Assembly (NCBI GenBank): GCA_014332815.1 | Contig: JACSZT010000004.1 | Span: 1-64,000, forward strand | DNA length: 64,000 nt | From: Weissella confusa | GTDB taxonomy: Bacteria; Bacillota; Bacilli; Lactobacillales; Lactobacillaceae | Direction of reading: 5' to 3' | Position numbers and translations under genes: made by a program | Shown here: piece after piece, positions 24,151 through 48,689 of the stretch | How the letters are laid out: every line of letters begins with the position of its first letter | Position numbering within the stretch: position 1 is the first letter of the stretch | Notes under the pieces: generated by a model | What the model was told of the DNA's origin: nothing | What the model saw: the letters and a program-made list of their open reading frames with translations, nothing else | Database searches by the model: none

Positions 24151-24747
24151 AGTTAGCGCTTGCAAATCATCAGCTAGTTCTCGATAAATGTTTACCAACG
24201 ACTTTGGCAAGCCCATGTCCGCCGGTACTGAAAAACTCAGCCCCTGTGCTTGACCTGGATTCGGATAGGGATCTTGGCCAAGAATCACCACTTTTACATC
24301 AGCCAAAGGCGTTGCAACAAGTGCTGCAAAGACATTTGGCAAAGCTGGATACAGCTGGGCCTGCTTCCCCCACAGAATAAAGACTGTTGGTTGCGCTTGT
24401 TTAGCAACTAATGAAATAATCGCATCGGTCAACGGTTCCCAGATTTGCCCTGCGTGCCCACCAGCTTGGTGAGCTGGCACAGTGAGCACCGTGTTTAACA
24501 GTAACACCCCCTGGTCTGCCCAACGATGCAAATCACCATCCATCGGCGTGCGTACTAGTGAAAAGGAGAAAATATTGTGATTTTTTTCACATCACACCCA
24601 ATTAATTGCTTTTACGCCGTTATCACGCAGAAAAGTGTTTGTTTGACTAAATGGTTTTGAACCGAAAAAACCACGATAAGCTGACAAGGGACTTGGGTGG
24701 GGTGCCTGCAAAATCAAGTTGTGTTCACCAACAATCAGTTTGCGCTT
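23973..24747 (-). CDS. ung: Uracil-DNA glycosylase
   Basis: UNG removes uracil from DNA in base excision repair. N to C, the pieces are 23973-24145 (start about 24069, [20 protein letters not shown]), 24146-24360 ([20 protein letters not shown] with the catalytic GQDPYP loop, then [13 protein letters not shown]), 24361-24545 ([12 protein letters not shown] and VFILWGKQA) and 24546-24747 ([20 protein letters not shown] with the catalytic His loop, ending VKAINWV). All active-site motifs are present at normal length, about 230 residues. pta follows, a common neighbour in lactobacilli. Confidence 0.94.
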
Positions 24748-25935
<1,188 letters not shown>

Positions 25936-26500
25936 TATGTAAACGTCGGACTCTTCAAAGGGCGCTTAATACCAAGCGCTCTAGCAAATCCTTGGGTAAA
26001 TGTTGTTTTTCCAGCACCAAGGTCACCATTTAATAAGATTGTGTCCCCTGGTTGGACATTGGCCGCTAGTTTAGCAGCCAATGCTTGTGTTTCTTCTACT
26101 GTATTCACTGCTAATCTCATAGCTATAAGTATACCAGCAACCCGATCCAAATCAATTGTTAGCACGTCAGTTGGTAGCTCAGATTGGATAAACTCTGACC
26201 ATTCAATCAGTGCGACCCCCTCACCACCAAAGTATTCAGCTAAGCCTAATTCTTCAGCTCCACCTTCTTCGCCTAGACGATAAACATCTAAGTGGTACAG
26301 TGGGAAATTTTCTGTTTGATATTCACGTACCAAAGTCTTGGGCCACCATAAAGGTTGTTGATTCAGATTGTAATTGATGCAACAACGCCAGCATTGGCTT
26401 GGCATCTTGGCCTTCAGCCGGCCTAATCATGACATCCATTACGCTTCTCCTTCGATAGCTGCTAAAAGCTCCTGGCTACGAGGTCCGTTGGCACTAACCG
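25936..26500 (-). CDS. tsaE: tRNA threonylcarbamoyladenosine biosynthesis ATPase TsaE
   Basis: TsaE is the small ATPase needed for t6A modification of tRNA with TsaB and TsaD. The start is ATG 26118-26120. The first piece has the P-loop LNGDLGAGKTTFTQGFARAL and the following one (26140-26340) has VREYQTENFPLYHLDVYRLG and GVALIEWSEF, the Walker B-like region. The C-terminal piece ends SQELLAAIEGEA at stop 26439-26441. That stop overlaps the ATG of the GNAT gene (TAATG), indicating translational coupling. The length is about 155 residues. Confidence 0.9.
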
Positions 26501-26930
26501 TAATTGTTCTTTGGTTTCCCGTTGTATCTGATCGCTAAACCAAAGCCTTGATAAGCTTCAAGCACCGCGACACCAACTTCCACTTCACGTGGGTGATTTG
26601 GTAGCGCAGCAGCCGAAATGATACCAAATAGGTCACCCTCATCACTCGCTGCCAACAAAATAATATTGTTGGTCGTCGATTGCAAGTAACTAATGTTATC
26701 CGCCTCGGTCACATCATCAATCTTGCCCACATCAAGCATCATATCAAAGGCTGCAACTGGTTTACCTGCGCCATCAAGAACAATCGCGTCAGAACCAGCC
26801 ACTCGCTCAAAGCCAAACTTTTCATAAATGTGAATGGCTGGTGCGTTATGCGCTTGAACGGTCAAACGAATAATGTCGACTGAGCTATACTCAGTTGCCC
26901 AATCTAGCATCTCGGCAATCAGTGCTTAGT
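26330..26930 (-). CDS. GNAT-family N-acetyltransferase
   Basis: An acetyl-CoA-dependent acetyltransferase of unknown substrate. It starts at ATG 26437-26439, overlapping the tsaE stop, with MDVMIRPAEGQDAKPMLALL. The next piece (26500-26710) has IILLAASDEGDLFGIISAA and EVEVGVAVLEAYQGFGLA, the acetyl-CoA-binding region. The last (26710-26930) has VDIIRLTVQAHNAPAIHIYE and KFGFERV, the motif B ending typical of the family. The length is about 170 residues. Coupling to tsaE might hint at a translation-linked substrate, but that is only inference; it is not a clear RimI match. Confidence 0.75.
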
Positions 26931-27480
26931 AATCCCGTGAATCTTGGTATTACGCGCATCAAAATACGATTCTGGCTTAATTAACGTATAAAATTCATCA
27001 ACGAGTACATTGTCGCGCACCACCACAAGTGCCATTGAAACGGCACTATGACGCTGTGCACTCGCTGTTTCAAAGTCCATTGCGACAAAATTCATGTTAT
27101 CTATTCCTCAATTGTTAGTTTGTAATTACAACTTGCGTGAAGTACGCACCGTGTCGAGTGACAAATAATGCGGTGCTGAAATACCGTAGTGTCCTAACGT
27201 CTCACGCAAAACACCGTTATCAAATGGCGCATTGTGTGCAATCACCAATTGATTAGGCGTATAAAATTGCTTGATGTGATTCCAGACCGCTGGAAACTTA
27301 GGTGCATCCGCAACATCCGCCTCTTTAGTTGTGTTGTCATTACTCTTTCTCCGCTAAATAACTTTTACTAATTGTTTCAATGGATCAACACCGAACTGCT
27401 CAGCTTGCGTCACTAAGATGCGTGCCGCTGCAACCGTATCATCCAAAGCGTTGTGGTGGTGTTCCAAATCAATATTCAGG
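26921..27480 (-). CDS. DnaQ-like (DEDDh) 3'-5' exonuclease
   Basis: A stand-alone exonuclease related to the proofreading subunit of DNA polymerase III. The start is ATG 27093-27095, and the first piece (26921-27095) reads FVAMDFETASAQRHSA with the first catalytic Asp-Glu. The middle piece (27125-27335) has PNQLVIAHNAPFDNGVLRET with the second Asp. The last (27354-27480) has [16 protein letters not shown] with His and the final Asp, stop 27354-27356. All DEDDh residues are present at about 180 residues. murB starts about 14 bases beyond the stop (ATG 27338-27340). Confidence 0.88.
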
Positions 27481-28505
27481 GCTGCTGCAACTGTATTCAG
27501 CTTGTGATTTGGTAGCTGTGGACATCCGTAATAATCAAGTTAGACGCATTTCCAAGCACCGTTACTGGCATTTCATTATCATTGGCATACAACAAGACAT
27601 CACGTAATTCTTCATCATCATGTGGCCAGAAAGCCCATTCGGCATTTCCACCAACACGGGTGTTCGTGTAAGCTGACAAATCAACGTTTTGTTGAATTTC
27701 TAGCCCCGGAAAGGCCGTCCAAGCACCAGCGTTCATGTAGACGGCACCCCCGACAGAACCAGGAATACCTGCGGCCCACTCGATACCTGACAAATCATGC
27801 TCGCGCGCAACTTGCGTCACATCGATGATGGCAGCACCGGCATGTGCCTTAATGCGTGTACCAGATACGGCGATGTCGGTCATCTTAGTTAAGAAAATAA
27901 CCAAGCCTACCAAGCCGAAGTCTTCCATCTTGGCCTCAATTTCAGCCCCATCGCCTGGCTCCAACTTGAACGTCGCAGCCAAAATAACATCACCTGTTTC
28001 TTGCACTAAACTGTGTCGGTATGCAAAAGACAATTCTTCGTTTGTGTACGTCTTTATTTCGCCAGTTGGCGTCATCACATCAGCTGATTCAAGCCATTCA
28101 TCAACTTGACCACCATTGTAATCTGAGCCGGTTGCATCCCCACGATTAACAATGAAACCTGCGTGCTTTGTTGACACTTGTGCGCCACCAATTTGGAAGC
28201 CTTGCAAGCCAGCATCCATAATCAGCTTTCCAGCAAAGTAACCTTCTGGACGCTTGAAAACAGATCCGCAAGATGGGAACTCCAAAGGTTGCTTACTTGC
28301 TCGCTTTTGGTTGTACCGGCACACGTTTGAGGAAGTGAGACAAAATATTACTAATGACCACCAATGACGTTAATGCCACTATGGTTTGTAATAGCTCCAT
28401 AAATCCTCCCCTAATTCAATTACAAATTACAATCCCAAAATACGCACTTCAGTTTCCAAATCAACGCCAAACTTTTCCTTGACGACTGATTGCACGTGCT
28501 TAATC
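27320..28505 (-). CDS. murB: UDP-N-acetylenolpyruvoylglucosamine reductase
   Basis: MurB is the FAD enzyme that makes UDP-MurNAc for peptidoglycan. It starts at ATG 27338-27340 with GGAGAAAGAGTA upstream. N to C, the pieces have [17 protein letters not shown] and [15 protein letters not shown] (27480-27720), [21 protein letters not shown] (27720-27930), [10 protein letters not shown] (27930-28120), [20 protein letters not shown] with the catalytic Ser/Glu region, and [15 protein letters not shown] (28120-28330). The C-terminus [12 protein letters not shown] has stop 28427-28429. The length is about 300 residues, type I-like with the family signatures. nhaP follows. Confidence 0.93.
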
Positions 28506-30480
28506 ACGTTGCGTTGTAATAAAGACTAATAAGATGGCATTTCCGAAAATGGCTCCGCGAAGCTCCCAAAGTTCTTTCTTTGGAAAGCGCCAAGCATCGG
28601 AATACAAAAGTGGTGCAATAAACAGCAACAAGAACCATTCTGTCTCTAACTCAACGTGTAGATTTAAAAACAAAGCGGCCAGCAGACCCAAAGCGATTTG
28701 GATCAAGCTAAATCCCACCAAACCACTGGCGTCGTTAATCAAACTTTCACCGGCGACCAAGTGCATGATTGATGGTGGCAATTTAGCTTGCTTCGCAATC
28801 GCTGCCACAGCCACCGGATCAGTTGGTGATAAGATGGCGGCGATGGCCAAAGCAACCGGCAATGGCAACTCCGGTACCAATGCATAAATAATAAATCCGC
28901 CTAAAATCAACGGCGTGAACAGTTGAAGCACCACGCGGAAAACAACGTCAGTATTACCATGAGCTGATAACCAATCGCCCAAAGTATTCAATGCAAATCC
29001 CAATACCAGTCCAACAACCGTTCCCATCAACGAGATGTAAAGGAAATTAGATGTGGCGGCAAATAGTGAGAATGTCCCAGCTGACGCAGCGGCGACAGCA
29101 AATTTCGGCAATTCAATTCCCAGAATGACGAAAATATAACCATTCAAGAGGTAACCAAACACGTTCCAGGTGTTAATCCCCACCACGTGCAACTCACCAG
29201 AATAATCGGCGTCATTTTGTGTATGCAAATTCTGAACAATAGCAGCAACCACGACCGCGATAACGCCGGATGTGTGTAGCTCTTCCGCCAACAGATAAAC
29301 TAAAACGGCACCACGGACACCTGACAAACCTGACAACAATGCCACACGCCAAGAAGCGGTTTCATTTTTGTGGTTCTTCAATCGAACCCATTGGTTAATG
29401 TACGTCCAAATCACACGCATACCGAAGATGACTAACCAAGTAATGACAGCGTATAGCAACGCCATTGGTAATGAAACTGAATTTCCCAGGTTCGTCGCCA
29501 AAGCTACAACCGGATGTGCTTCCGTATCACCAGGTGGCACTTGGGTCTTTGGCTTTTCAGCCAATAGTGGCAAGAAGATAACGGCTGCCAATAGCGAAAT
29601 GATAATCGCAATTGCAGCGATGAATAGCATCAATGAGCGTTGTGGGAACGGCAAGCCTGAGTCCGTCATCAAAGGCACAGACAACACACCGGCCATCGTC
29701 AGGTTAATTTCGGCCTTCAAAATTGGGCTCAACTTGTCCGCCTTCATAAAGCGCATCTGCAACTGACGAATTTGCATTTGGTAACGCAAAATAATTTCGT
29801 AAGCAATCGCTTGATTTGACTCGCGACGACGCGTTTCAATTTCACGAACCGCTGATTGCAACACATAAACACGCGCACGTGCTTCAGACATGTGCTGAGA
29901 TCGACGAGTCATGACCACGAAACGCTTAAGTTGGCGCCATGTGCGCTTACGCTTATCGTGCGTCACCAAATCATCCAAGTCGGCTTCCATACGATCAATA
30001 CGGCGGTTTTCACTGGCAAAGACCAATGGTGTAATGCGTTCCTCAACTAACAATTTACGTAGCGCACTGCGCTCGGCATCTAAGGCAAGCTCACGATTCT
30101 CATGCTCAAGGCGTGAACGGTACGTAATAATCAAATTATAAGCTGCCGTTTGATCCGTCTTAGAAGCTTGACCCGCCTCACTCTCAAGGTAATCCGAGAT
30201 AGCTGCAATAGCTTCCTTGGCAGCTTCGTGACGAGCAACCTTGTATTCCGCAATCAAACGATCAGATGAATCGTCGCTTAACCAAACACGAATGAACGTC
30301 CCCTATTCTTCTTCATCAGTCAACATACCAGCTTCAGCAAAATTAATCATTTGACGAATCTTCAACCCAGTTTCTGCTGAGATAAAGTGGGCATCGTACA
30401 AATGTTGCGTCGCTTCACGCTGTGCGTTCAACCCAGAAACTTCCAAATCCATGCGAACAAGCGCTTCTTGTTGTGGACCA
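28310..30480 (-). CDS. nhaP: Na+/H+ antiporter, CPA1/NhaP type, with long cytoplasmic C-terminus
   Basis: A monovalent cation/proton antiporter in the membrane. It starts at ATG 28398-28400 behind GGGGAGGATTT, with first span [19 protein letters not shown]. The membrane domain occupies 28506 to about 29700 and includes the family core [15 protein letters not shown] and [20 protein letters not shown] with the transport Asp residues. A helical cytoplasmic tail (29700-30480) is rich in Arg and Glu and ends [14 protein letters not shown], stop 30303-30305. The length of about 680 residues is at the long end for NhaP and typical of the long-tailed subgroup. It lies next to the c-di-AMP genes; c-di-AMP often controls cation transport, but direct control is not shown. 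Confidence 0.85.
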
Positions 30481-31475
30481 CCATGGTCATGACCAGGAAA
30501 TGGTCGTCAAACCAACGTACCAACTAATTAGCTTGACCGCGATAACGATACCAACACCACGTAGCAACGTGACGGCTTTCGTGCCGCGAATCAACATCAT
30601 CAAGCGGTACAACAGCCACCAAACGATGACAATATCGATAATCCGGACGACGCTAATAGTCTTTATGAGTGACTCAAAATCAATGTTCATAATCAGCGCA
30701 CCAATATGACGCTTTGACATGTATTGAATGGCATCATCCAACTCATTAATCAAACGCGTTTCTTGCTGGTATGCCTGCTTTTGCTTGAATAAAGCTGAGC
30801 GTCCCAAGTGTTCCAAACCACGACGAATTTCAGGTTGGAACACAACAACCAAAGCAATAACTCCCCAATTAATGATTTGATCAGTCATCTTGGGAATCGT
30901 TGGGTTATCAGACAACGGCAAGTATGCTGCCGCCGCTGCCAATCGCGCGTCCTTAATGATAACCGCCCCATCGTGCAACGGTGTATTCGGGATAAACGTG
31001 TTAATCAACAATTGGCTTGAAACTTCAGCATCAATCTTGATACCTGTTTCAATGTATTCTTCCAACCCAGTCTCCATTTCAATTGGCCATGTCTGCTTGA
31101 CATCCCCATCAGCTGGTACCAACTGACGCGTTAAGTACTTGCGGTAATCTTCACGAGACAGCGATTGCATCAATTCCGCATTACGCGTGATTGACACATC
31201 CCCTGTTTCTTCCGACACAACAATCGTGAGGGCATCCGTCACTTCGGAAATACCCACTGAGGCACGGTGACGAGTTCCTAATTTGATACCATGCCCTTAA
31301 GGAGACCCGTCGTCGACTCGCTCGTCGCAGTCTTCGTACGCGTTGTCCCATTTGATTGTCCGTCGGCATAAGCTGACATCAAGATGGCAACAAGCAAAGT
31401 CGCAACAACATAGACAATTTTGTCATATCCTTTTTTCATGTTACTTCTCACCTCGCTTACCAAATGGCATCACGC
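30481..31475 (-). CDS. cdaA: Diadenylate cyclase CdaA
   Basis: CdaA makes the second messenger c-di-AMP from two ATP. It starts at ATG 30688-30690 with [21 protein letters not shown] to C, it has three spans ([51 protein letters not shown]), then the DAC domain with catalytic [20 protein letters not shown] (30880-31070) and [17 protein letters not shown] (31070-31290). The C-terminus ends MPFGKRGEK at stop 31441-31443, two bases from the cdaR start. The length is about 275 residues. The order cdaA-cdaR-glmM matches the conserved Firmicutes operon. Confidence 0.94.
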
Positions 31476-32475
31476 GTGACCCGCAACCGTGTGCTCACCA
31501 TCGGTCAACTTCTTCAAATCCGCATAGACTTGAAAGTTCTTGGTATTCTTAGCAGCCGTCACGAGAGCCGATGAACCGGTTAACGTGACATCAACCGTAT
31601 CCGGCACCCCATTAATATAATAATCATCAGTATCAATGCCCGTCAATTGCACTGGCACTGCTACAGTCTCCGTTTTAGATGCACTTTGACGACCCATCAA
31701 TTGGACGTTGTTGACTGAAGATGTCACCGTACCAACTGTGTAACCATCAGCGATGGCGTCCTTATTATAGTCCGTGTGAACGGTGTAATAAGCTGACGTA
31801 CGCTTGTAGATGGTAATCGTCAATTTTTGCTTGGCTAGCTTATAAGTCAAATCGCGATTCAATCCCGATACCTTCAAGTTAATGGCCACCGGCACTTGCT
31901 TCGTTCCCGTACCAGCAGAAACCGGAATCTTAACCGTTGTCACTTGTGGTGAAATCGCAACATCTACCACGTGTCCATTCGCATCAAGCGCTTGTAGGTT
32001 AACTTCCTGTGAGACAGATTTCTTTGTATCGCGTTGCAAATTAACTGCAGCGACAACACTTGAAACTGAATCAATAACTGTCGTTGGATCAACGCTGTCT
32101 GTACCTTCTGGCGTGTTAACAGTAATCGTCTGTGATGACGCACTTGTTACGCCAGACAAATCAACAGTAACTGGAATTTCCTTTATTTTGTTCAATACAT
32201 CAATCTTACCACGAACCGTGATTTCATTCACCGAGCCCGTAAGATCGAAGTTATCGGCATTGCCGTTCTTTGTACGTGTATCACGTCCTACTAACACACG
32301 TGGGCGACGTCCTTCAGCGTGACGCGTCAATACCGCACCACCCATTCGTCCTAGTCGAAAAGCCAACTCAGGCGTTAGCTCCTTGTTCGCAATTCCACGA
32401 ACCCCATCCGTTCCAAAGTAATGTAATTCAACCATGTCTTAATTCTGCTCCTTCGGCGTAATTGTAATCGTTCCA
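31290..32475 (-). CDS. cdaR: CdaR / YbbR-domain regulator of CdaA
   Basis: Membrane-anchored extracytoplasmic partner that modulates CdaA. It starts at ATG 31437-31439 behind GAGGTGAG. The first piece has one N-terminal span, [19 protein letters not shown]. YbbR repeats follow in 31476-32270, for example [24 protein letters not shown] and [11 protein letters not shown]. The C-terminus ends [10 protein letters not shown] at stop 32439-32441, just before the glmM start at 32435. The restored length is about 370 residues. The repeats look alike, so the order of middle pieces rests on the general rule and not on sequence alone. Confidence 0.88.
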
Positions 32476-33660
32476 TCAGCACCAAAGAACTTGATACCGT
32501 TGTCTTCAGCAGGATTGTGCGATGCCGTGATTTGTGCACCAGCATCAGCCTGTTGTGCACGAACCAAGTAAGCAACACCTGGCGTTGAAATAACGTTCAA
32601 ACGCAAAATTTCGATACCGACAGAAAGCAAACCAGCAATCAATGCATGCTCAAGCATTTGACCAGACATTTTAGCAGCATCGATAGCAATGTTCATGCCA
32701 TCCAAACTATCAGGAATCGTCGTTTGCAAGTACTCAAGGTACTTAGCAGCCCCTTCTGGGAAGTCAGAGACAGTTCCCAGACCTTCAGCAGCTGGACGAG
32801 GCAACGTATCTTCTGGCGCATCCAACAATGCTTCAATTTCAGCTTCCAATTCGTCTGACAACTTGAACGCAATCAAGCGGTCACCGTCACCGTCAAAAGC
32901 CAACCCAACTTGGGCACCGTTTTCAACCGTGAACTTAGCAATTGCTTCAGGATGCGTTGAACCAACACCCTTGTTGATGTTCAACCCGTCTGGTGATGTT
33001 GCCATCGTTACAAAATCAGCCCCCATATCGGCAAACAAGTTTGCGACAAGGCCTGACGTTGCACCCTCTTCAACAACGTAGCGATCACCAACGGCCGTCT
33101 TAACAGATGAAATGTTGTGCTCAGCCATTGCCTTGTACATACCGATGTTTGACATAACCGTCGTCACAATGGTGTCTTGCTTCAAGCGACCATGTTCTGA
33201 CAAGTACTTACCCGTGATGAACATAACCTTGTCACCATCAACAATGTCACCGTTCTCATCAACGTCTTGTACCTTCACGTTAACCAACTTTTGTGGGTAC
33301 ACCGTCATCTCAGCAGCAATCTCTGACAACTTCTTACCCGTTGACTTCATCACGTGCAACAATTGCAAAGCCGTCAACATACCGTCACCAGTCGTTGACC
33401 AGTCCAAGAAGACCACGTGACCTGATTGCTCACCACCTAGGTTGTAACCTGACTTCAACATCCCAACTTCTTTACGAACAACCGCTACAATACGGTCAAC
33501 GTACTCACCAACAAGTTCTTCCGTTTGGGCTTCAGCCATAACACGCAACAAATCTTGCGTACCTGAAGGGCGAACAAGGACGCGACCATTGTCACCCATC
33601 TCGGCTTCGACTTCAGCAATCACTTGCTTGATTGCTTCGTTTTCCAAGGCAGCTTTCTTG
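32270..33660 (-). CDS. glmM: Phosphoglucosamine mutase
   Basis: GlmM converts glucosamine-6-phosphate to glucosamine-1-phosphate for wall precursors. It starts at ATG 32433-32435 with [21 protein letters not shown] to C, the pieces hold the phospho-Ser loop [19 protein letters not shown] (32476-32680), [19 protein letters not shown] (32680-32890), the metal loop [14 protein letters not shown] (32890-33100), the [22 protein letters not shown] sugar loop (33290-33440) and the phosphate loop [18 protein letters not shown] (33440-33660). All four signature loops are present, with a length of about 450 residues. GlmM often binds and restrains CdaA, which fits its operon position. Confidence 0.94.
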
Positions 33661-34065
33661 ATACTTTTCAACGTTACCTGAGTGCGGGATATTAATCTTA
33701 AGAATGCGGACACTCTTAATCATCCCCTGCTCAGCCGCGTACTCAGCTTGACCATTATGCAATAGATTTCCAATTTCTTTGTAGGTCGAGCCATCATTAC
33801 GCGTAATTTCTTCAATGATATCAAGCGTTTGATACTCTGCAGCCATTATTAGTCTACGGTTCTTTAAGGATATTGTAACTGCACAAAAAAAGCAACAATC
33901 GCACTGGATTGTTGCTTAATTGGTTTATTAACTAACCTGATTTTCAGTGAGGATTTTCTGAATGATTTCATCCATCTCTGGTGTCTTCGTCCATTCAGTG
34001 TATTCCTTGATGGCTACCATCTCTGGAATTTCAAAATTCTCATTTACATACTTTTTAATGACATC
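33661..34065 (-). CDS. Small hypothetical protein between glmM and the Rgg-like array
   Basis: Two minus-strand pieces seem to make one protein of about 105 residues. The first (33661-33846) reads [20 protein letters not shown] and [20 protein letters not shown]. The second (about 33933-34065) reads [19 protein letters not shown] and ends [12 protein letters not shown], with a terminator directly after. It is acidic and helical with no membrane span. I do not recognise a family. The join is inferred from piece order, so two separate small genes are also possible. Confidence 0.45.
33884..33917 (-). terminator. Intrinsic terminator before the Rgg-like array
   Basis: AAGCAACAATCCAG and GATTGTTGCTTTTTTT form a hairpin with a seven-T tail on the minus strand. 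Confidence 0.85.
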
Positions 34066-34069
34066 GTTA

Positions 34070-35055
34070 ACAAATCAAGCATGGTCGTGATTTCCCCAAG
34101 CGTAATGTTGTCATTGCTGTGTACGAACTGGCGATAGCGATCAGCCGAAATACCGTTTAGCGCAATCGTTTCAAGTGAAACATGCTTGGCATTTCGAACC
34201 GTATTTAGTTTTTCAACAATTGTTGCCAAGATGCACACCTCCCCCAAGGTTTATGACACTTGCACACGTCGCTTATACAAAACATCGAACGTCAAGGCGA
34301 TTAGATGGAAGCCCTTGTAACCAGTATTTCGATACTCTTGTTCCGTCTTATCACGTTTCTGCGCCAGCTCCTCAGCCGACATCGTTTGGGCCCCGTCTAG
34401 TTGCACCCCATGGGTGTCATCCCATTCATCAGTATCCATCCAGAGTTCTGCGCGCAAAACTAGTTCACCAACCCGTTGCGGAATATAACTTGTGAACTCT
34501 GGGACACTACGAATAAAGATTTCATATAATGGGTAGAATTCCGACGCCCGTAATACCGGTGCAAGTTGCGAGAACACCTGCATTTCAAAATGGGTGAACA
34601 TCTGATAACGAGACAATTCACCCAACAACGCGGCTAGTGGCTCGCGATACATTCTAAATTCATTAGCTGCATGAACTGGATTACCAAAGAAATATTCTTC
34701 CAGCAGTTCTGCATAATGAGCCAGCATACGCAATTCTAAGTTACCAGCATTATTGGGTTGCTTTGAAATCGCATGCAAAACGAAACGCATCGTCTCAACT
34801 GAATTCACTGAATCATGAATCAACAACACCAACGCGCGATAATGAACCTCTGCCACGCTATCACGAATATTTTCATTCAACGACACAAACGTTTGCTCTT
34901 CATACGGCTTGGTAAATAAGCTCTTACCGTCATTCTTCAAGTGGTGGCGCTTTGACGTGACCACTTGCCAAATACCTGCTAAATCGAACGTCATTTCACC
35001 AAACGACATCAACGCAACCTGTCGTCGCTGTGCGGCCTCAATGAACCAGTCTACG
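34070..35055 (-). CDS. Rgg/MutR-like transcriptional regulator A
   Basis: The first of four tandem regulators with an N-terminal helix-turn-helix and a long helical, TPR-like C-terminal domain. The N-terminal piece (34070-34250), behind GGGGGAGGTG and perhaps starting at TTG, reads ATIVEKLNTVRNAKHVSLET and then ISADRYRQFVHSNDNITLGE, the HTH. Following pieces are helical, with EYRNTGYKGFHLIALTFDVL, YQMFTHFEMQVFSQLAPVL, FYPLYEIFIRSVPEF and LRMLAHYAELLEEYFFGNP. The expected size of about 300 residues fits Rgg. Such proteins often sense secreted peptides. The order of the C-terminal pieces is less sure than for enzymes. Confidence 0.6.
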
Positions 35056-36040
35056 CCTGGCGTTCGTACCGTCAACTTCGCATATACTGTGATATCTGTC
35101 GGCTCAACACGTAGAATATGCATCATCTTAAGTATTTCCGTGAGCGTCATTAATTCTGGCTGGTCAACAATCACGTCTAATCGTTGCTTTGAAATGCCGA
35201 AACTCAGCAATTCATCTTTTGAAATCCCCTTCACCATGCAGATGTACCCCTGCACATCGCGCGCTAACTGGGCGGCATCATCTGATAACAACCATTTATC
35301 AATCAGATGTTGCCCCGCTAAACCACGATACGTAAAACTATTTAACAAGTGACGTGGGTTTTCAGTGCGCTCATACGCATCTTCTTCCGTTTGAATCATC
35401 GTTTTAAAGTCTTCGGCCGTGCAAGCCGCAAATGAATCGTTTCTAAGCAACGCCTGAATCAAAACCGGCTCCAAGTCATGCAACACCACATTAAGTGGCG
35501 TCCGGAAGATATCTCGATTTTCCACGTGACGACTCAAAAACAATGCGCGATAGATGACGTCCTCGATATCTTCGCAATCAAGCATCGCCCAACGTGCGAC
35601 ACGATGGTCCGCTTCCTGCCAAACCTGCAAGCTATCAAGGTTACCCGTCAGCATGTGATAATCCGTAAAGAAGCGCTCTAACTGGCGCATCGCTTCAACT
35701 GGATCATCGAAAAATGTCGCATACAAATTATTAATTGCCATGCGTGTGCGCCAATTTGCCCACTGCATAATTTTGCTGTCGCCAGCTGCAGCGCGGTTCA
35801 TAACCGTCAAAATTTTGTCAAAGCGGGTTTGATCTCGGTGATGCCAAACTGGATGTTGACACAAATGCCTGCCACTACGCGTGCAGCCTACGAAGCACAC
35901 GTTGAGACGACTAAGAAAGCCTTGAAGAAGTAGCAAAAACGACCCACACAGATTTGTGTGGGTCGTTTTTTAGGCTAAGCCGTAACTATCACTAATGTCG
36001 TTAAGCAACACTTGATAGCGTGACGTGATAAACGGATACG
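35056..36040 (-). CDS. Rgg/MutR-like transcriptional regulator B
   Basis: The second regulator of the array. The HTH piece (about 35060-35260) reads MVKGISKDELLSFGISKQRL and TEILKMMHILRVEPTDIT, aligning with the same segment of regulators A, C and D. Later pieces (35260-35825) include IEDVIYRALFLSRHV, FRTPLNVVLHDLEPVLIQALL and YATFFDDPVEAMRQLERFF. The C-terminus SRYQVLLNDISDSYGLA has stop 35970-35972, followed at once by a hairpin terminator. The total of about 300 residues fits the family. Its identity as a separate gene rests on having its own HTH and its own stop with terminator. Confidence 0.6.
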
Positions 36041-36230
36041 AATTTCATTAATTCGTTCAGCAATCATCTGCGTCATGGTGGCTGCTCCTTTCATCATTTC
36101 CTTCATGATACCCACAAACTATGAAAAAAGCGGGCGATTTTGTCTCATTTTTGATACTTTCCGTTAAACAGGACTGTCGTACAACTATACTAATAACATC
36201 AAGAGAAAAGAGATGAGGATTTTCATGAAG
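35826..36230 (+). CDS. Candidate small peptide gene (about 37 residues) divergent from regulator C
   Basis: A short plus-strand gene, restored right to left. The start ATG AAG at 36225-36230 has a good ribosome site GAGATGAGGATTTTC and a TATACT box at about 36187. The coding continues in the left piece 35826-35933 as GLISVMPNWMLTQMPATTR and AAYEAHVETTKKALKK, stop 35931-35933, then a terminator. Both ends fit the piece borders deduced from regulators B and C. The peptide has Met/Trp-rich and basic helical parts and no clear signal sequence. Small genes beside Rgg regulators can encode pheromones, but this is not a recognised SHP. Confidence 0.4.
35937..35971. terminator. Bidirectional terminator between regulator B and the small peptide gene
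   Basis: The arms AAAACGACCCACACA and TGTGTGGGTCGTTTT are perfect, with T tracts on both strands. It abuts the regulator B stop (35970) on one side and the small peptide stop (35933) on the other. Confidence 0.85.
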
Positions 36231-37055
36231 AATACACGCAGTAAATTCAAAGTGAACGGCGCTTGGACCACATCAGTATCCACAACTAATTCGGCAAATG
36301 AAATCGTCAGCACATCCATCAAAATCTGCAGATCACTGATTGCCAAATCACGTTCGCCGCGAATAAAGGCAAAATATTTACTTTTCGAAATCCCGTTATC
36401 CACAATTGTTTGGACAGAAACGTTCTTGTTTCAGAACGTGAACAACTGGTAATCCTTCAGTTCTTCATATATCGCCGTCACGAATGGCTTACAGTCCACT
36501 TCCTGCTTATGCGCAATCAGATACTGAAACGCCAAATTGTATTGGAAATACGCCACCAACTGGGTTCGTTGATATTTTTCCCACAAGGCTTTTTGGTAAA
36601 CCTCTAGTTCAGTTAACGTCAAATCGCGATACATCGTCGGCAGTGACTTTAGGGTTGGACGCATCAAGTGTACGAGCGCGTAATAATGAATACGCAAAAT
36701 CGTTAGGTAGATTGGCATCGGCATGTAGCCGGCGAATATCCCAATACTCTTAGTGAAAATCTCGTACATTCGATAGAATCTTTTCGGGGTCAGCTTATCA
36801 GCGATAATCGAAAAGAGTTGAATTTCATACATGGTGTCATATGTCATTCGGACTTCCTGGCTTCCTCGCTTAACAGCCACTGCAATCCACTCTGCAAATT
36901 GACGTTCAGCAGCTGGACTGTTTTCAATGTAATACGACTTCAGCATCTTCGCGAATTGGCGTAGCATAAACAGTTCAACATTGGATGGTCGCGCAGGTTG
37001 ATTGATAATGGCATCCAACACAAATCTAGACCGCGTGACCCCGTACTGCGTTAAT
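36041..37055 (-). CDS. Rgg/MutR-like transcriptional regulator C
   Basis: The third regulator. It starts at ATG 36074-36076 behind AAAGGAGCAGCCACC with MTQMIAERINEIR, continued in the next piece (36231-36425) by VQTIVDNGISKSKYFAFIRG and SDLQILMDVLTISFAELV, a full HTH. Later pieces have LWEKYQRTQLVAYFQYNLAF and ELKDYQLFTF (36425-36620), YEIQLFSIIADKLTPKRFY and RMYEIFTKSIGIFAGY (36620-36830), and MLRQFAKMLKSYYIENSPAA (36830-37055). The small peptide gene is divergent from its start, about 150 bases apart, the usual Rgg-pheromone layout. No ligand residues can be named. Confidence 0.62.
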
Positions 37056-38070
37056 TCACTACTATTGATATGTTTTCCCTTAATCAAATAACGCAAGGCA
37101 ACTCCAAAACTATCTGGCATTTCCGCCTTAGGTAAGTCATCGTACGTTGTTGAAAACATGCTTGGGGCATCGTGCTTCATGTGGTGTCGCTTCATTGTAA
37201 GTGCTTGCCATAGTCCAGGGAATACTGCTAGCGCTTGTTCAGCCACTGTTTGATAGTCATATGGATTAACATCGAAGGCCGCAAAACGATTCTTAGCCTT
37301 TGAATTCGGATTCACCTGGAAAAACACGGTTAAATCCGCTGGCAGCAATCGCAGGTACCTCATCATATCAAACAAGTCTTCCAAACGAATCGCTACTTCC
37401 TGGTGAATAATTCGGTACAACAAATCAACAAACGAATAGGTAACCAGGCGGTGTTCCGCTTCGTGCCATTCATCCAAATGTAGCAAGTATTCCGTAATCG
37501 TTTTTGCCAAGTCGATTTGGATAATACTCGTCGGATCAAAATCAGACAACTGTTGATTCACATAGACTTGAAACTCTAACGCCGTTTCATAATCAGCATG
37601 ATTACCAGTCCGACCGTACTCGTGGGTCACGTTGAACCTCACCTTCTGCAATCTTTAGGATGCGATCAAAGGCTTCACGATTGTCTTCAAGTAAGTACTT
37701 CAGCAACACAAACTCAGCATTATTTAGAACTGAGCTAATCGGCGCGCGGAAAACCTGGCGATTGTGCATATACTCATCCGCAATTCCGAGTCGCTAATGA
37801 TGAGGTCGACATTATCCTGTAATCAAATTGAAGTGATGACGAAGCGTATCGGCGATGAAATTCCGTTCGTTTTTAAATAGCTGATTCCCCGTTAGGTGCT
37901 GATAGTCGCAGACAAAGTCCTCGAACGCAGCTAAACCGACTTCGGGATAATCGAAGAACATTTGATAAACTCGGTAAACATCTAGGCGCCAGCGCCACGT
38001 TGCAAATGTGAAGATCGCACCTGATAAGGGCGACTTGGTCACGTCGGAGGCCAAAAACCTCCGACATTCT
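37056..38070 (-). CDS. Rgg/MutR-like transcriptional regulator D
   Basis: The fourth regulator. The HTH piece (37056-37190) reads MPDSFGVALRYLIKGKHINS and ELTQYGVTRSRFVLDAI, continued by VAIRLEDLFDMMRYLRLLPA (37190-37400). Further pieces include VFPGLWQALTMKRHHMKHD, EWHEAEHRLVTYSFVDLLYR (37400-37600), FRAPISSVLNNAEFVLLKYL (37640-37800) and YRVYQMFFDYPEVGLAAFED (37812-38060). The motif KRHHxKxD occurs in B and D at matching places. A short hairpin GTCGGAGG/CCTCCGAC follows at 38043-38065. The four genes look like old duplications, with clear but limited residue identity. Confidence 0.58.
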
Positions 38071-38107
38071 CAGTCTGCTTTATCGTTTGCCCCTTGGCTA
38101 TGAACTA

Positions 38108-38620
38108 AGATTAAGACATAAGTGCGGGTATCAACCCAAAAGTGCCAGAATTGACACAAATATCGCAACTTTTTTTATTCGTCAAGCGAATCGTTTTGCA
38201 TTTGCGCAATTCCGCGTTGGCTGCTTTTTGCCATTGTTCATGTGCCCATGCCACGACTTCAGGGTGATCCAAATCACCACCATACTTGGCCGCGCGCTTC
38301 ATCATCTCAGGAATCCAATTCATGTCTCCACCTCTCACTTTCTATCTCTTCTTTTTTCACAGTAGCTGTTGGTCTAAAACCCCTGACTTCAGTCAGGCGC
38401 AAGACCAAAGAAGTGATTAGCTAATTTGTGCTTCTTGTTCACGGGCCATAAAGACGTCGTCGTTGACGCGGATCATGTGTCCACGCAATTGGAACTCTTC
38501 AACACCCTTTGAGATAAACTTGGTCAATTGCATCTTACCAACGTGGAGGTACGCAGCTAGTTCAGCTTGCGTGCGGAAACGGTGTTCACCGTCGACTTCA
38601 TAACGCCACACCAAGCACAG
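38108..38620 (-). CDS. Small hypothetical protein downstream of the Rgg-like array
   Basis: Two minus-strand pieces probably make one protein of about 115 residues. The first starts at ATG 38321-38323 behind AGAGGTGGAGAC and reads NWIPEMMKRAAKYGGDLDHP and EVVAWAHEQWQKAANAELRK. The second (38417-38614) reads YEVDGEHRFRTQAELAAYLH and GHMIRVNDDVFMAREQEAQIS, stop 38417-38419; AELAAYLHVGKMQLTKFI looks like a helix-turn-helix. I do not recognise a family. An IS200/IS605-like palindrome lies between the two pieces, so they could also belong to different units. Confidence 0.4.
38383..38403. repeat. IS200/IS605-like end palindrome
   Basis: The bases CCCCTGACTTCAGTCAGGCGC hold the near-perfect palindrome CTGACT-TC-AGTCAG. 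Similar hairpins close IS200/IS605 elements in lactobacilli. A related copy is at 48524-48545. No transposase is nearby, so this would be a remnant. Confidence 0.35.
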
Positions 38621-39000
38621 CAGCTGAGTAATACTCTATTTGTTTGATCTACATCCACCGAAATACTGCGAGGTGAAACTGTTCACCTATTTAATTCGCG
38701 GTAGATGATCATCTAAGACAGACTAGAACATCTTGGTTGCTGGCATGGGATAGCGACGACACACACTACTAAAACGAAAAACACCACAACCCGAAGATTG
38801 CAGTGTTCTTTACCAATCAAAATTTCATAAAACGTTTAACGTGTTGCTATGATAGGGTTTTTGTTTTTATTACAGTTTAATTACATTTTACTAATTGGGT
38901 TAAACTCTTCTTTTTGTTTAGTTAAATGGAGGTAGTGGTGTGTGTCCGTCCTATCGGCCGGAGTGCTTGGCTCCTTCTGAGGTACGTGTCTATACGCGTG
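38621..39000. other. Gap of about 380 bases before the pyr attenuator
   Basis: No protein-coding piece was found here. It holds a terminator-like hairpin on the minus strand at about 38778-38812 (AACACTGCAATC, tetraloop, GGTTGTGGTGTTTTT) and AT-rich sequence at 38820-38930 suited to the pyr promoter. Beyond that I see nothing definite. Confidence 0.5.
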
Positions 39001-39008
39001 GCAGGAAA

Positions 39009-39140
39009 AGCCTCGTGAATCCAGTGATTCACGAGGCTGTCCTTCTGATTAGTCTGGTGGTAGTCCTTCCCCATGCGAGTGTTGAATTTCCCCTGTACCC
39101 CTAATCAACGCAACCCTTTGTAGCCTCACGGGACTAAAAA
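39009..39140 (-). promoter_or_regulatory. PyrR-dependent attenuator of the pyr operon
   Basis: On the minus strand AGTCCCGTGAGGCT (39122-39135) matches the PyrR binding-loop consensus ARUCCNGNGAGGYU at every position, and is flanked by AACCTTT and AAAGGGTT arms. Downstream on the same strand is a strong terminator, AGCCTCGTGAATC/GATTCACGAGGCT with TTTT (39005-39038). With UMP bound, PyrR should hold the anti-antiterminator and allow termination before pyrB. A pyrR gene is not in the window. Confidence 0.85.
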
Positions 39141-39168
39141 TTTAAAAGGTTATTTGTTGTTGAAAATA

Positions 39169-41580
<2,412 letters not shown>

Positions 41581-42359
41581 GTTCCTTCGTCAAAGCACGT
41601 GTATCAATGCCCGTCAAACCTGGCAAATCCATTGCTTCGGCCCATTCCGCAATTGACATTTGTGAACGCCAGTTCGATGGACGACGGGCAATTTCGTGCG
41701 TGACAATCGCCGATGCGGCAGGCTTCAATGATTCGAAATCATCGCGGTTAATCCCGTAGTTACCAATCAATGGGTACTACAAGGCGCGCAGAATTGAGTT
41801 CTTCAAGCCGAAATCAATCATCGCAATTGAAACCCCTTCGGTTGGGTTCACATAGGTAGTCTTCGTCGTTACTTCGGCAACTTGTTGGTTTGACAATTGC
41901 GTTGCTTGCAAGTCAGCAACCGTTGTCTCCGTTACTTCGTCCACAATCGTTGCCTTCATAACACCATAATCACGACGTGAGAATAGTTGGTGACCCAAGC
42001 AAATTCCCATCAATGGCAAGCGGTCTTGCAACGTACGAATGACATCTAAGACACCTTCAACTGATTCAGGATCACCAGGTCCATTTGAAAGCAACACGCC
42101 ATCTGGATTCATATCCAAGATTGTCTTGGCATCAACATCCGCTGGGAATACCATGACATTCACCCCGCGCTTATAACGAACGCCTTCAACGGTGTGGTCG
42201 TTAATTTCTTCGTGTGTGATTTCAAGGTTCGTGCCAACAATTGATTCAGCTGAAACGGCGTACCCGTGGTTTTGTGACGTGAAGTCGACACGACCATTCG
42301 TAAAGTTACGCACCGCGTGGTTAAAGCCACGGTGACCAAACTTCAACTTGTACGTTTCT

Positions 42360-45300
42360 GCCCCGTTAGCGTCTCAGCTGCTTGTCCAATAACGATTGGT
42401 CCTGAACCAATAACCAAAACCTTCTTAATGTCCTCGCGCTTAGGCATGTGACGCCCCCTTCTTCTCTTCAGCAATCATCTCCAAAAATTGGTCAAACAAA
42501 TACTCGGCATCGTGTGGACCAGGCGCAGCATCTGGGTGGAATTGCACTGAGAATGCTGGGCGGTTCTTCTACCCAGCGTTGGTACGATGGCATCAGGACG
42601 TTCCTTGCGCAAAATGCGTTCCAAGAATTCCAATGACAATGGCTCGATGTAGACCTTATCTGCCATCTCAGTGTCCGTCATGATTGTGGCTGGGTTTGAG
42701 TTAACCAAAACCACTTCATAGCCTTCTTCTTTCAATGACATCGCAGCTTGCGTGCCTGAGTAATCAAGCGCCACCGCTTCTTCAACTGTCGTAGCAATCG
42801 TTGACTCTGGTACCGGTTCGTTCAAACGATCCATCAAGTCCTTAAACTCTTCGCGATCTTCAGCTTCTTGGATAGCTGATAGCTTCGTTCCCAGCAATTC
42901 GATGTTCAACTCGGCCAAGATACCAGCTTCAGACAAATCCTTAGCCATGTTCAAACCAGTTTGACTATCACGCATCACTTCGAATTCGATTTCCTTGAAA
43001 CCGGCGATTGAACGTTCAATCAACACTTGCGTTACTGGTGACAATTCCAACCCGTTCGCTGAAATTTCAACCAATTGTGCGTGATCGTTGGCGATACCAC
43101 CACCAGTTCCACCTAGCGTGTAGGCCGGACGGACAATCACTGGGTAACCGTGCTCGTCGGCAAGAGGATCCAGAGCCATTTGGATGTTAACCCCACCCTC
43201 AATCTTCAAGGCGCGGATAATCTTCAAGGCTGCGTCACGCATCATTTGTAGCTCGCGGTCAGCCAACGTTTGTACTGGCGCTACCACGATTGAATCACCC
43301 GTGTGAATCCCAACTGGATCAAAGTTTTCCATTGAAGCCACAATCAAGGCGTTGTCAGCGGGAACGATTACGTAGTCCAAAGCTGGCTCGAACTCAGCCA
43401 TCGTCGTACCCGTTACTGGGTTAATGATTTCGTCCAACGTCAAGCCCACCGCAATCTTCGCCGCCATCTTGGCAATTGGATAACCTGTTGCCTTTGACGC
43501 CAAAGCAGATGAACGAGATACACGTGGGTTAACTTCGATAATGTAGTACTTAAATGACTATAGCAAATCTGCGTCCGTCGTATTATCAAACGTGATGTCG
43601 TTCAAACCCGTCGCCCCGATTTCAAGTGAACGAACGGCCTTGTTCATGGCTTCCTCGATGTTACGACCGATAGCCATGACTTCACCAGTTGCCTTCATTT
43701 GCGTTCCCAAACGACGGTCAGCTGAAGCAAACTTATCGAATGGCCAGCGTGGAATCTGACGCTTTGCCAATTCAAGTGTGTCGGCATCCCCAACGTTTTG
43801 CTTCAATGCTTGTTCGAGCTCGACCAAGTGCAAGACCTTATCAAGGAAGAAGTAATCAATCTTCGTGCGGTTGTGAATATCATCAATCGACACACCACGA
43901 CGGAACAAGTCAGCAATCATGAACAAACGATCATCACGTGCTGGCATCAAGGCATAACTTTCCTTGTCCGTCACAACTGATTCGTTTTGTTGTTCGTATG
44001 TTGAGTAGTAGTACGGCGTTTGTGATTCAAACTCAGCCGCCACCGTATCAACCATCTTGTAGACCGGTTGCAATCCCATCGTTCGACGCATTTCACGCAC
44101 TTCAGCAACTGTCTTACCCCAGAAGCCTGCGATTGTCTTATCTGCAAAACCGTGCATCACGTCTTCCAACGTCAACGGCTCAAAGTACAACTTGTCTGAA
44201 ACTGAGAAGTCTGTTGATACCGTTTCAGGATTTGAATTCATGATAATAGCTTCGTAGCCCGCCGCTTGAATTGCCTTTACCGCATGCACGGTCGCGTAAT
44301 CGAACTCAACACCTTGCCCGATACGGATCGGACCTGAACCCAACACAAGGAACTTACCAACTGGTTGTGGCAAACCAAGTTGCTTAATCACTTGGTCAAA
44401 CTCTTCACGATCTTCGGCACGGTCTAGGTCCGCAACCGTCGTTCCCAAAATTTGCACGCCATGTTCAGCAAGTGGTGCGGCCAAGTTAATCGCCGTTTGA
44501 CCACCGAATTGCACGACAACACCCTTTGGTTGCTCCAAATCAATCACGTATGAACCCATCAAGTATGAGTCAATCAAAACCGGGTGATCATTTGACACTT
44601 GCACAGCACGGCCCATGTAGTCCGTCAATTCGTCTGGGTTTGTCACAATTTCCATGGCGCGACCGCCCAAAACGTATGATGGGCGCACGAGGACTGGATA
44701 ACCAACTTCATCCGCTGCAGCCAATGCGCCAGCCACAGTCGTTGCCGGCATCAAACCAACTGTGTTCATCGCCTTCGCCAAGTCGATTGACGCTGCCACC
44801 ATTTCATCCTTCACCTTTTGTGAAAGCGTTTGGGCTGGATAAACTGACATTGAGTCACCTGAGTGAACCCCGGCACGTTCGATGTGTTCCATGACACCAG
44901 GAATAATGACTGTTTCTCCGTCTGACAAAACATCAACTTCCGCTTAGACGTGAACCGTCTTAGGCTCAGGGATGACCCCCGTTTCAAAGCCCATGTCGGC
45001 CAATCGCTCGCCTAGCATGACGCGCGTTGCTAATTGCGCCAACTTCAAGTGCGTCACCTTTGAAATGAATGGCACTGTACGTGAAGCACGTGGATTAACT
45101 TCGATAACGTATGCCGTATCTTCATGAATAACGAATTGGACGTATTCCCCCTTGTCTTCATCAGCAACCGTGAATAAGACATTACCAAATGTTGGCACCT
45201 TCACGTTCGATGCGACGAACGCCTTGTACAACGCCTTTTCGAACGTTGAATCTGATCCCATCACTTCTCCAGTTGACTTCATTTCTGGTCCAAGCAATGA

Positions 45301-45755
45301 GTCAACATCTGGCAACTTCGTGAATGAGAAGATTGGGGCCTGCGTTCCATCTTGACGCGTGGTATTCACAACAATTTGTAGCTTGTCATCACGCATTGCC
45401 GTCACAGCATTGTTATCAGTTTCGCTTATCTTATCCAACACATCGACGCGCAAACCGTTTTGGGCGAAGAAAGCACCCGTTCCGGCTGTTGCAACCAGTT
45501 GGAAACCAAGGTCATCGAAGCGACGTGCCAAAGCTAGTGAAGTCATGATAAATTCTCCCTCTTTCTATATGTATCCCAGCCGTAGCCGGGTATTTTATGT
45601 CTGTTAGTCCATTGGCGTAACAGCGAATGATTGTGATTCCAAAACGCTCAACAAGGCTGCCACTGTATCGAATGCCGTAAACAACGGCACCGCATTTTCA
45701 ATGGCTGCGTTACGAATCAAACGACCGTCTGACATCGGGCCGGCTTGTGTATTGA
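42360..45755 (-). CDS. carB: Carbamoyl-phosphate synthase large subunit
   Basis: Makes carbamoyl phosphate from bicarbonate, ammonia and two ATP. It starts at ATG 42445-42447 with [20 protein letters not shown]. Pieces then run N to C to 45755: the first ATP-grasp half ([57 protein letters not shown]), the oligomerisation region, the second half ([48 protein letters not shown]), then the MGS-like regulatory domain ([20 protein letters not shown]). The end QSFAVTPMD has stop 45604-45606. The total of about 1,060 residues is normal. This gene shows the piece rule over more than 15 borders. Confidence 0.95.
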
Positions 45756-46710
45756 TAATCCAAGGTTGCGGGTTACCACGACGTTCATCAACCGTTGTTG
45801 TCTTCAAAACCAACGCACCCATCTTGTTCAAATCAAAAACCTTCATGTGGTCAAGCCCGTAATAAAAGGAACCTGATGACGGCATGAACGGGTTCTTCAA
45901 ATCCAAACCTGGTAGTTGTACTGCAAATCGATCTTAGCATGACAAGTTAAGCTCCAATGCCTTAATGTAATCGAACTTATCAAAGACCTTTGCCAAAGTA
46001 CGATATTCAGCCACTGACTCGCCAGCGATTGAAATCATCACTGGCAAATCTGGCAATTGCGTTTCCAACTCAGGCAGAATTTCAGTTGCTACCTTATCCA
46101 TCCCTGGATTAGCCAACCCAACTGAATTCATGACCCCCACCACCGTGTTAATCAACACCAGTCCATCAGCACCAGCGGTCTCAACAGCTTTAGCAATCGG
46201 CTTAATGTCGGTTACGTTTGGTGATAGCTTGGCATAGAGTGGCTTATCCGTTACTTCACGAACCGCCGCAACAACTTCAGCTGCGCTATCTGGATCAACT
46301 CCGAATTCCATGCTTCCCTTATCAACGTTTGACACGGCAGATGCGCCAGCTAACATCAACTCTAGCGCATCGTCCATTGAGCGGATACCACCAACGCCAA
46401 TGATTGGAATGTCAACAACTGAAGCCGCTTCCCAAACCATACGCACAGCGATTGGGTGAACTGAAGCCCCAGAAATACCACCTGTACCGCGATATAGACG
46501 AACTTGTCGTGATGCAATATCCAAGCTCACAATAAATACTGGCTTTGTCATTGTTTAATTGTCTCCCGGGTGATTAGCTTCCCATGCCGTTAGAGGCGCT
46601 GGGAACTTTTGTAGCGCCGTCGGAATTTCACGAACTGACGCAAAGTTATATTTGTCTAAGGCCACTGGCAGTTCATCAACTAGCTTGCTGATAAAGAGTG
46701 GGTCTTCGGC
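45535..46710 (-). CDS. pyrD: Dihydroorotate dehydrogenase (class 1)
   Basis: Flavoenzyme that oxidises dihydroorotate to orotate. It starts at ATG 45544-45546 behind AAAGAGGGAGAA. The next piece (45756-45930) reads [20 protein letters not shown] and [21 protein letters not shown] to [18 protein letters not shown] with the catalytic Cys region (45934-46130), [20 protein letters not shown] (46130-46330), [20 protein letters not shown] and LAGASAVSN (46330-46510), ending [11 protein letters not shown] at stop 46555-46557, three bases from the pyrF start. It has about 310 residues. The quinone-linked class 2 N-terminus is absent. No pyrK is seen next to it. Confidence 0.9.
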
Positions 46711-47525
46711 ATTCATCGCCCCAATTTGCGCCTGTTGCACTGTGTTTGGAATGTCGTATAGTTTCAAATCAAGAAAGACGGTGAAGCCCTGTTCCTTCAA
46801 TGCGGTAACCAAGGCTGGTCCTTCACGGTAGAACAATTCCATCCCTACTTTAACAGCTGGACGGACGCTCGCTGGAAATTGGTCCAAGAACCCCCACATC
46901 GTTTGGGCATCTGGAAAATCCAAGGAAACCGTCACAAGTTGGGTAGTCTGCATTTCTTCTTCAGAAAATGAGGTCAATTGCGTGATGGCTAGCAACTTAG
47001 GTGCCGTTACGCCAACTGCGTCTGCCCCTTCTTGTGCACCCCTCTTAGCTGCTTCAAGCATACGCACACCACCCGCTGCATGCACCGTCAAATAATCCAC
47101 ACCTAGTCGCGCAACATTTTCCGTGGCAGCTCGTGCTGGTGTGACAACACGGCTTTGATCACCAACCGCATCCCCAGCCAATCGAATACCAGGCGTAATT
47201 GATAAGAAGCCCGCTGGCGTGTTCGCGTGAATGTCTGCTGATTCGAATGCAGATGAAATGGTTCCCGCCACACCGGCTTGAGCAGCAAGTTGCGCTAAGT
47301 GAATAACCGACTCGCGCATTGGCACGTAAAGGGATCATTTGGTTGTAGCTTAATGGCCTCGATATCCAACAAGGCTTGAGCAACTGCTGCTTTGTAATCT
47401 GTCATAAGTTTTTTCTCCGTCTTAAGCGTTAAATTCTGTTTCAATAAGTTGGTAAGCTGCAACTGGATCAGTTGCCTGCGTAATTGAACGGCCAACCACA
47501 ATCCCATCAGCGCCCATTTGATCAT
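46511..47525 (-). CDS. pyrF: Orotidine 5'-phosphate decarboxylase
   Basis: PyrF decarboxylates OMP to UMP. It starts at ATG 46549-46551 with [12 protein letters not shown] to [21 protein letters not shown] and [20 protein letters not shown] with [15 protein letters not shown], the catalytic Asp-Lys-Asp loop (46710-46925), [20 protein letters not shown] (46925-47120), [16 protein letters not shown] and [20 protein letters not shown] (47120-47330), then [20 protein letters not shown] ending IETEFNA, stop 47422-47424. The length is about 235 residues, with all catalytic residues present. pyrE starts 18 bases further. Confidence 0.94.
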
Positions 47526-48125: not shown

Positions 48126-48282
48126 CTCTTAAAAATGATACGTGTTGTTATCTTGCGTCATTACTGTGACACGCCCGCATGGATTGCGGTGGATGATGGC
48201 ACTACTGTGGTTGAAATAATTGTTTCTTCCAAAGTTATCATCTACCTTTCTTCCTTTGGTACATGTTTATAATAACGCACCT

Positions 48283-48296
48283 TGTAAGCGGTTACA
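48283..48296. promoter_or_regulatory. Catabolite-responsive element (cre)
   Basis: TGTAAGCGGTTACA is a 14-base palindrome-like box that fits the CcpA consensus TGWAANCGNTNWCA at every defined position. It sits upstream of a small frame whose downstream gene could not be identified, so the controlled gene is unknown. Confidence 0.7.
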
Positions 48297-48545: not shown

Positions 48546-48574
48546 AGCAAGTCTACTTTATCTTCTCAAATTTT

Positions 48575-48608: not shown

Positions 48609-48689
48609 TCACTTCAGCTATGATTTGCGACACATAGCTAGGGAAGTGCTACTCCACCACCCTGTATTCAATTGTAAAGGGACCACCTT

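Follow-up and report, generated by a model that had tools for sequence, protein, structure and literature searches.

Two tandem genes for double-length, probably Rgg-like regulators in a Weissella confusa record corrupted by block-wise inversion

We analysed a 64,000-nucleotide stretch of Weissella confusa DNA (positions 1 to 64,000 of contig JACSZT010000004.1, assembly GCA_014332815.1; hereafter the window) and within it a locus in which four Rgg/MutR-like regulator genes had been predicted to lie in tandem. We conclude that the locus holds two genes, here termed A and B, and that the product of each comprises two homologous units. The best explanation, which we regard as probable, is that each gene encodes two fused Rgg-type units, each an XRE-type helix-turn-helix (HTH) followed by a TPR-like helical domain, forming a pseudo-dimer, and that the record in which they appear is corrupted block by block. 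The double-length proteins are likely to be fused regulators of Rgg type.

The open reading frames (ORFs) of the raw record are odd: the DAC/CdaA, YbbR and phosphoglucomutase (GlmM-like) genes are read on the minus strand, and the order of their segments is reversed. The window matches contig C19 of its own assembly (G000) with 100% identity over the stretch tested, which excludes an error in cutting the window. When the raw region was compared with 40 relatives, the sibling matches among those listed came in pieces of ~200 bp or shorter, colinear and each inverted. Plain inversion of 198-base blocks gave the best score among block sizes of 50–400; since A and B were still split at block ends under it, we sought the exact rule. 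That rule is that each 198-base block, counted from contig base 1, has its first 197 bases reverse-complemented in place, leaving only the last base as it was. All 50 consecutive blocks tested (150–199) mapped in the same order to a sibling genome, G023, taken as W. confusa DSM 20196 (JQAY01), each of them inverted; blocks 190, 192, 193 and 195 showed 25–51 mismatches each, at insertions or deletions. Once the inversion is undone, window positions 23834–38173 form one continuous 99.3% match to G023 (14342 bp), and further restored matches extend over 38270–43644. We conclude that the odd ORF pattern is an artefact of the record. That the pieces needed reordering had been foreseen in the original prediction. 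Unless stated otherwise, all feature coordinates are given in this restored sequence.

Real rearrangement in the organism would also place such inversions in the assembly itself at 100% identity. We rejected this explanation, to which we assign a negligible probability: the period of 198 bases is exact and in register with contig base 1, one base in every block is left unturned, neighbouring genes are broken in the same manner, and long colinear matches show two other contigs of this assembly, C13 and C22, to be intact.

Both A and B are uninterrupted single frames of 614–634 amino acids (aa) in four siblings, G023, G003 (taken as VTT E-062653), G013 (taken as a second W. confusa DSM 20196 record) and G041. 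Restored A is itself one open frame and agrees with its G023 counterpart at 602 of the 607 positions compared, stop included. The four predicted HTH segments are real and lie at about the places proposed, now as HTH1 and HTH2 of A and HTH1 and HTH2 of B; their spacing of about 1 kb, previously equated with one Rgg gene, corresponds to half a fused protein. The motifs YEIF, KRHHxKxD and FFDxP, thought to be shared by all four units, each occur exactly twice in positions 33801–38200 (six frames), once per gene, with YEIF and KRHHxKxD in the N-terminal half and FFDxP close to the end of the C-terminal half. Four separate Rgg genes of ~300 aa in tandem would account for the four HTH segments and their spacing of about 1 kb, and yet this arrangement is highly improbable, given that frames of 614–634 aa span the HTH pairs without interruption in four siblings, that restored A is one frame and that each landmark is present once per gene. 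We rejected it on the intact two-gene siblings G023, G003, G013 and G041; two or three proteins instead of four were named in advance as an outcome that would speak against it, and two genes of ~607–620 aa were found.

The two halves of these proteins are homologous. Profile–profile comparison of N-terminal with C-terminal halves (hhalign) gave probabilities of 94–96, with E values of 1.1e-7 and 1.1e-8 over 281 and 251 columns. Among representatives of the six paralogs (A–F) that we found, identity between the halves of one protein is 10–15%, against 23–34% between N halves and 20–37% between C halves. The pattern G-[FIV]-[ST]-x-x-[KR]-[LMI] is present at the expected recognition helix of HTH2 in all six representatives.

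Likeness to Rgg proteins, which the original prediction had assigned to these domains, was borne out by searches of the PDB with the family profile. The profile matched, among others, 5v5t (ElrR, E. faecalis; E 2.5e-10, positions 7–156), 4yv6 (S. dysgalactiae Rgg2; E 1.4e-7) and 10lg (MutR family; E 1.2e-4). Compared with the same 10 single Rgg-like proteins, the N half gave an E value of 1.6e-18 and the C half 3.4e-10. An N-terminal XRE-type HTH is present: at E<=1, HTH_3 is matched by 7 of 10 members (best E 1.2e-05) and HTH_26 by 6 of 10 (best 8.8e-07). The models of the Rgg C-terminal domain, PF21259 and TIGR01716, are each matched by 3 of 10 members at E<=1 (best 0.0016), and three of eight C halves match Rgg_C (best 2.8e-4). 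Pfam searches with the raw, unrestored ORFs of the array returned nothing at E 0.001.

Structural comparison pointed in the same direction. Residues 1–297 of an AlphaFold model of B matched ElrR, Rgg2, NrpR, RopB and PrgX (Foldseek E 1.4e-4 to 9.5e-4). In a VIA comparison of this model the top row was NrpR (Z 16.6, root-mean-square deviation (r.m.s.d.) 9.9, 269 aligned), and ElrR (Z 15.5, r.m.s.d. 9.6, 283 aligned) and RopB (Z 15.3, r.m.s.d. 6.2, 219 aligned) were also matched. With the C half as the query, each of the top 38 Foldseek rows was Rgg, NrpR, PrgX, ComR, ElrR, PlcR or one putative Listeria regulator. The HTH plus TPR-like receptor fold of RRNPP(A) regulators is thus seen in the N half of a mediocre model and more weakly in the C half, and the open frames of 606–645 aa depart from the single-unit chain of about 280–340 aa expected of an Rgg/GadR/MutR protein. 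ElrR of Enterococcus faecalis (5v5t/5v5u) has the same HTH and helical domain, matching residues 1–300 of the B model; it is a 306-aa single-unit chain, whereas proteins of the A/B type add a second whole unit. The streptococcal Rgg2/Rgg3 receptors of short hydrophobic peptides (SHP; 4yv6, 6w1a, 6w1f, 10lg) share the N-terminal HTH and C-terminal helical fold, but are single units of about 284 aa with SHP ligands, and by eye we recognized no SHP-like peptide at the present locus. PrgX of Enterococcus (2axu and others) and the wider RRNPP(A) receptors likewise combine the HTH with a TPR-like receptor fold in a single unit, unlike the double-length A/B type.

We built a tree from both halves of 17 double proteins (paralogs A–F) and 10 single Rgg-like proteins, with a midpoint root used for drawing only. 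The N halves form one clade (98/96) and the C halves another (100/100). The N halves branch as ((D,F),((E,C),(A,B))), and these three pairs recur among the C halves, there joining in no resolved order. Matching pairs in the two clades suggest a single ancestral fusion that preceded the six paralogs, and one fusion or internal duplication before whole-gene duplication into six is well supported as a reading of these sequences. The six paralogs are spread across the W. confusa group, with at most five intact in any one genome. A and B are sisters in the N-half tree (99/95) and, weakly and with a long-branch warning, in the C-half tree (85/83); their relationship looks like a local tandem duplication. 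Duplication with divergence, as originally suggested, thus did occur, but the joining of units is old and common to six paralogs at different loci, and only the A–B step is local. As to origin and not function, it is quite possible that the two units go back to two distinct, adjacent Rgg genes that became fused, and not to duplication of a single gene: the C halves group with one set of single proteins and the N halves with others, although support for this is weak (84/69), long branches meet there and the root serves only for drawing.

Both halves are under purifying selection. In eight comparisons (A, B, C, D and F), the non-synonymous rate (dN) was 0.009–0.055 against a synonymous rate (dS) of 0.29–2.98 in either half; dS exceeds 1 in 8 of the 16 half comparisons, so the ratios are rough and only the direction of dN/dS is safe.

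An ordinary Rgg acts as a dimer of identical chains, whose HTHs together contact a single operator and whose activity is switched by a ligand held in the helical domain. By analogy, A and B are likely to be covalent pseudo-dimeric transcription regulators of Rgg type. Each chain would fold as a covalent, asymmetric pseudo-dimer, the two HTHs of which would bind the two halves of one operator, a task for which an ordinary Rgg needs a homodimer. The diverged helical domains could accommodate one small ligand or two, either peptides or other molecules, which would switch DNA binding or activation. Gene B would most likely control the divergent promoter that it shares with a small ORF of 34 codons on the opposite strand. 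A more specific version, in which these are fused asymmetric Rgg pseudo-dimers particular to the W. confusa lineage, with two sensors and two DNA heads providing two-input logic and with the A/B pair acting on the 34-aa gene, is one that we put forward tentatively and consider doubtful.

The main rival to a pseudo-dimer is a C-terminal unit that is a structural HTH–TPR copy, binding neither DNA nor ligand and serving dimerization or effector coupling in an otherwise ordinary homodimeric Rgg. The greater distance of the C halves from single Rgg-like proteins (E 3.4e-10 versus 1.6e-18 for N halves) and the weak scores of HTH2 agree with such an add-on. However, constraint on HTH2 and the C half is similar to that on the N half, and all six paralog representatives retain the recognition-helix pattern in HTH2; we consider the structural add-on unlikely.

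Several observations weigh against the reading of two fused Rgg-type units forming a pseudo-dimer. Gene B is frameshifted in this record: one base is missing from the restored sequence near 37.64 kb, so that the frame changes near residue 483 and a stop is reached at codon 507. Either a sequencing error or a genuine loss may lie behind this, and B is intact in four siblings. For the G023 copy of gene A, Pfam gives no match at E 1 and the PDB a weak one (5v5t, E 0.02); B is under every Pfam cut-off, Rgg_C scoring 14.3 of the 27 bits required, and the best HTH2 profile match has an E value of 0.01. AlphaFold gave a mean predicted local distance difference test (pLDDT) score of 57 for full-length B (8 sequences), with the C half mostly under 60, and of 64 for the C half of paralog C alone (8 sequences). 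The Foldseek matches of the B model have r.m.s.d. values of about 9–14 Å and target template-modelling (TM) scores of about 0.4–0.5. For the C half alone the best Foldseek E value is 2.6e-3, with no row under 1e-3, and the best VIA Z score of 9.4 (r.m.s.d. 5.2, 186 aligned) is within the background of helical repeats. Both halves of E sit on long branches; a warning from the tree tool marks several joins, including A–B and D–F, as possible long-branch artefacts; and the dN/dS ratios are rough, as noted above. Finally, one genome (G021, taken as W. cibaria SP7) keeps only broken copies, in contigs C58, C80, C30 and C44, most pieces containing stops, which indicates that the system is dispensable there.

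Among the 28 genomes of the genus, 14 match the family at E<=0.001 and five hold intact double-length frames. G041 and G003 carry A, B, C, D and F intact; G023 carries A, B, D and E, with C broken; G013 carries A, B and C; and in G000, C is intact as deposited and A and D are intact once restored. The other eight matching genomes have single-unit proteins only, in frames of 279–343 aa. In a sample of 395 genomes from the order, which among the five holders included G000 but not G003, G013, G023 or G041, three match at E<=1e-15: G000 itself, the only full-length match, and two whose matching proteins are single-unit (308 and 331 aa). In 295 order genomes, the top Rgg_C matches listed sit in frames of 188–346 aa, and longer frames with weaker scores are possible beyond those matches. 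Plasmid records yielded no match to the family; two phage records matched, in the HTH only (residues 8–65). A limited literature search found no description of double-length or fused Rgg proteins, which is not proof of absence in print; term searches of PMC9765709, PMC12700828, PMC10075063 and PMC13361665 found mention of neither Weissella nor a fused or double receptor. The strict level of RRNPP_detector takes receptors of 250–500 aa (PMC10075063), so that double-length proteins (606–645 aa) would be left out.

The restored order of the locus is cdaA, ybbR, glmM, a small ORF (~104 aa), A, the 34-aa ORF on the opposite strand, B, an ORF of ~105 aa and pyrB, the last named by eye (Table 1). The 34-aa ORF was found at E<=1e-16 in five of 28 genus genomes, the same five that hold A and B, with two extra weak matches (E 0.08) in G041 and G013. 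It differs from G003, G013 and G041 at 4 of 105 bases, with one amino-acid change, in a region that is ~10% diverged from G003 and G013. By eye, its product is hydrophilic and lysine-rich at the end, and we take it not to resemble a streptococcal SHP. The terminator-like inverted repeat between A and this ORF is kept in four genomes. A TATACT hexamer with a poor −35 partner, identified by eye, faces the 34-aa ORF across its spacer with B, in which we found no perfect inverted repeat of at least 6 bases with arms up to 25 bases apart. Only 2 of 10 loci of paralogs C, D, F and E showed small ORFs bearing a ribosome site in the 600 bp upstream, and no such ORF recurred between genomes (E coming from one genome only). 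By its position, the 34-aa ORF is the best candidate for a target or partner of B.

Table 1. Features of the locus in restored coordinates
Feature	Position	Strand	Remarks
Gene A, double-length Rgg-like regulator	34081..35904	+	TTG start, 607 aa; raw pieces on minus strand in reverse order
HTH1 of gene A	34081..34280	+	From alignments
HTH2 of gene A, start of C-terminal unit	35002..35240	+	From half-versus-half profile comparison and alignment
Inverted repeat flanked by A and T runs	35905..35939		Between A and 34-aa ORF; terminator-like on both strands, by eye
34-aa conserved small ORF	35941..36045	-	Divergent from B, convergent with A; ribosome-site-like GATGAGG
Spacer common to 34-aa ORF and B	36046..36193		AAAGGAG ribosome site before B, by eye
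Gene B, double-length Rgg-like regulator	36194..38055	+	ATG start, 620 aa in G023; frameshifted in this record
HTH1 of gene B	36194..36400	+	From alignments
HTH2 of gene B, start of C-terminal unit	37118..37340	+	From half-versus-half profile comparison and alignment
Period-198 block inversion artefact	1..64000		Measured in blocks 150–199, borne out over 23834–38173 and 38270–43644; remainder extrapolated

The ~105-aa ORF between B and pyrB (38285–38602) is present in three siblings and has no Pfam match at E 1 (G023). Elsewhere, paralog C (L126:6139-7644) and two single Rgg-like genes (L118:1411-2199 and L119:1388-2200) each precede a gene starting MEWLL...K, which is 502 aa long in L126 and extends past the stretch obtained in the other two; we assume that it may be Mga/AtxA-like.

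The artefact reaches other contigs of the assembly. Applied to contig C18, the same rule yields one frame of 606 aa, showing that C18 is scrambled, and C13 and C22 are intact by their long colinear matches or frames. C24 is probably scrambled too, on the slight evidence of two short inverted matches, one beginning exactly at a block start. For 23 contigs other than C19, ORF totals were compared over at most the first 12 kb, a weak test because 198 is a multiple of three. After restoring, they rose in C11, C12, C14, C15, C18, C23 and C24, hardly changed in C16, fell in C8, C9, C10, C13, C17, C20, C21 and C22, and were equal in C1–C7. It looks as though contigs due to be turned had been reverse-complemented block by block; the artefact may have arisen at deposition or later, and may account for the assembly completeness of 66.5%. 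Restored positions 23834–38173 are 99.3% identical to G023, although G000 is classed as a separate species genome; a stretch of C13 is only 82–85% identical to G023, G003 and G013, and a short piece of C24 is 84% identical to G023. An artefact-driven species split or a mixed genome may explain this discrepancy. The restored window is also 99.3% and 90.3% identical to two records both titled Weissella confusa DSM 20196, which are ~10% apart at the locus, and one of them may be mislabelled.

Block-inverted contigs of this kind can pass for real sequence, break gene calls and mislead readers of a region. If A and B are indeed fused pseudo-dimers, surveys with a receptor filter of 250–500 aa would have missed the family, and a single protein could respond to two distinct signals and recognize an asymmetric operator. 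With the dimer fused in one chain, two heads and two sensor pockets would be separately mutable, making the question of two-input control addressable, and the six paralogs, found in food-associated, non-model bacteria, provide a comparative set.

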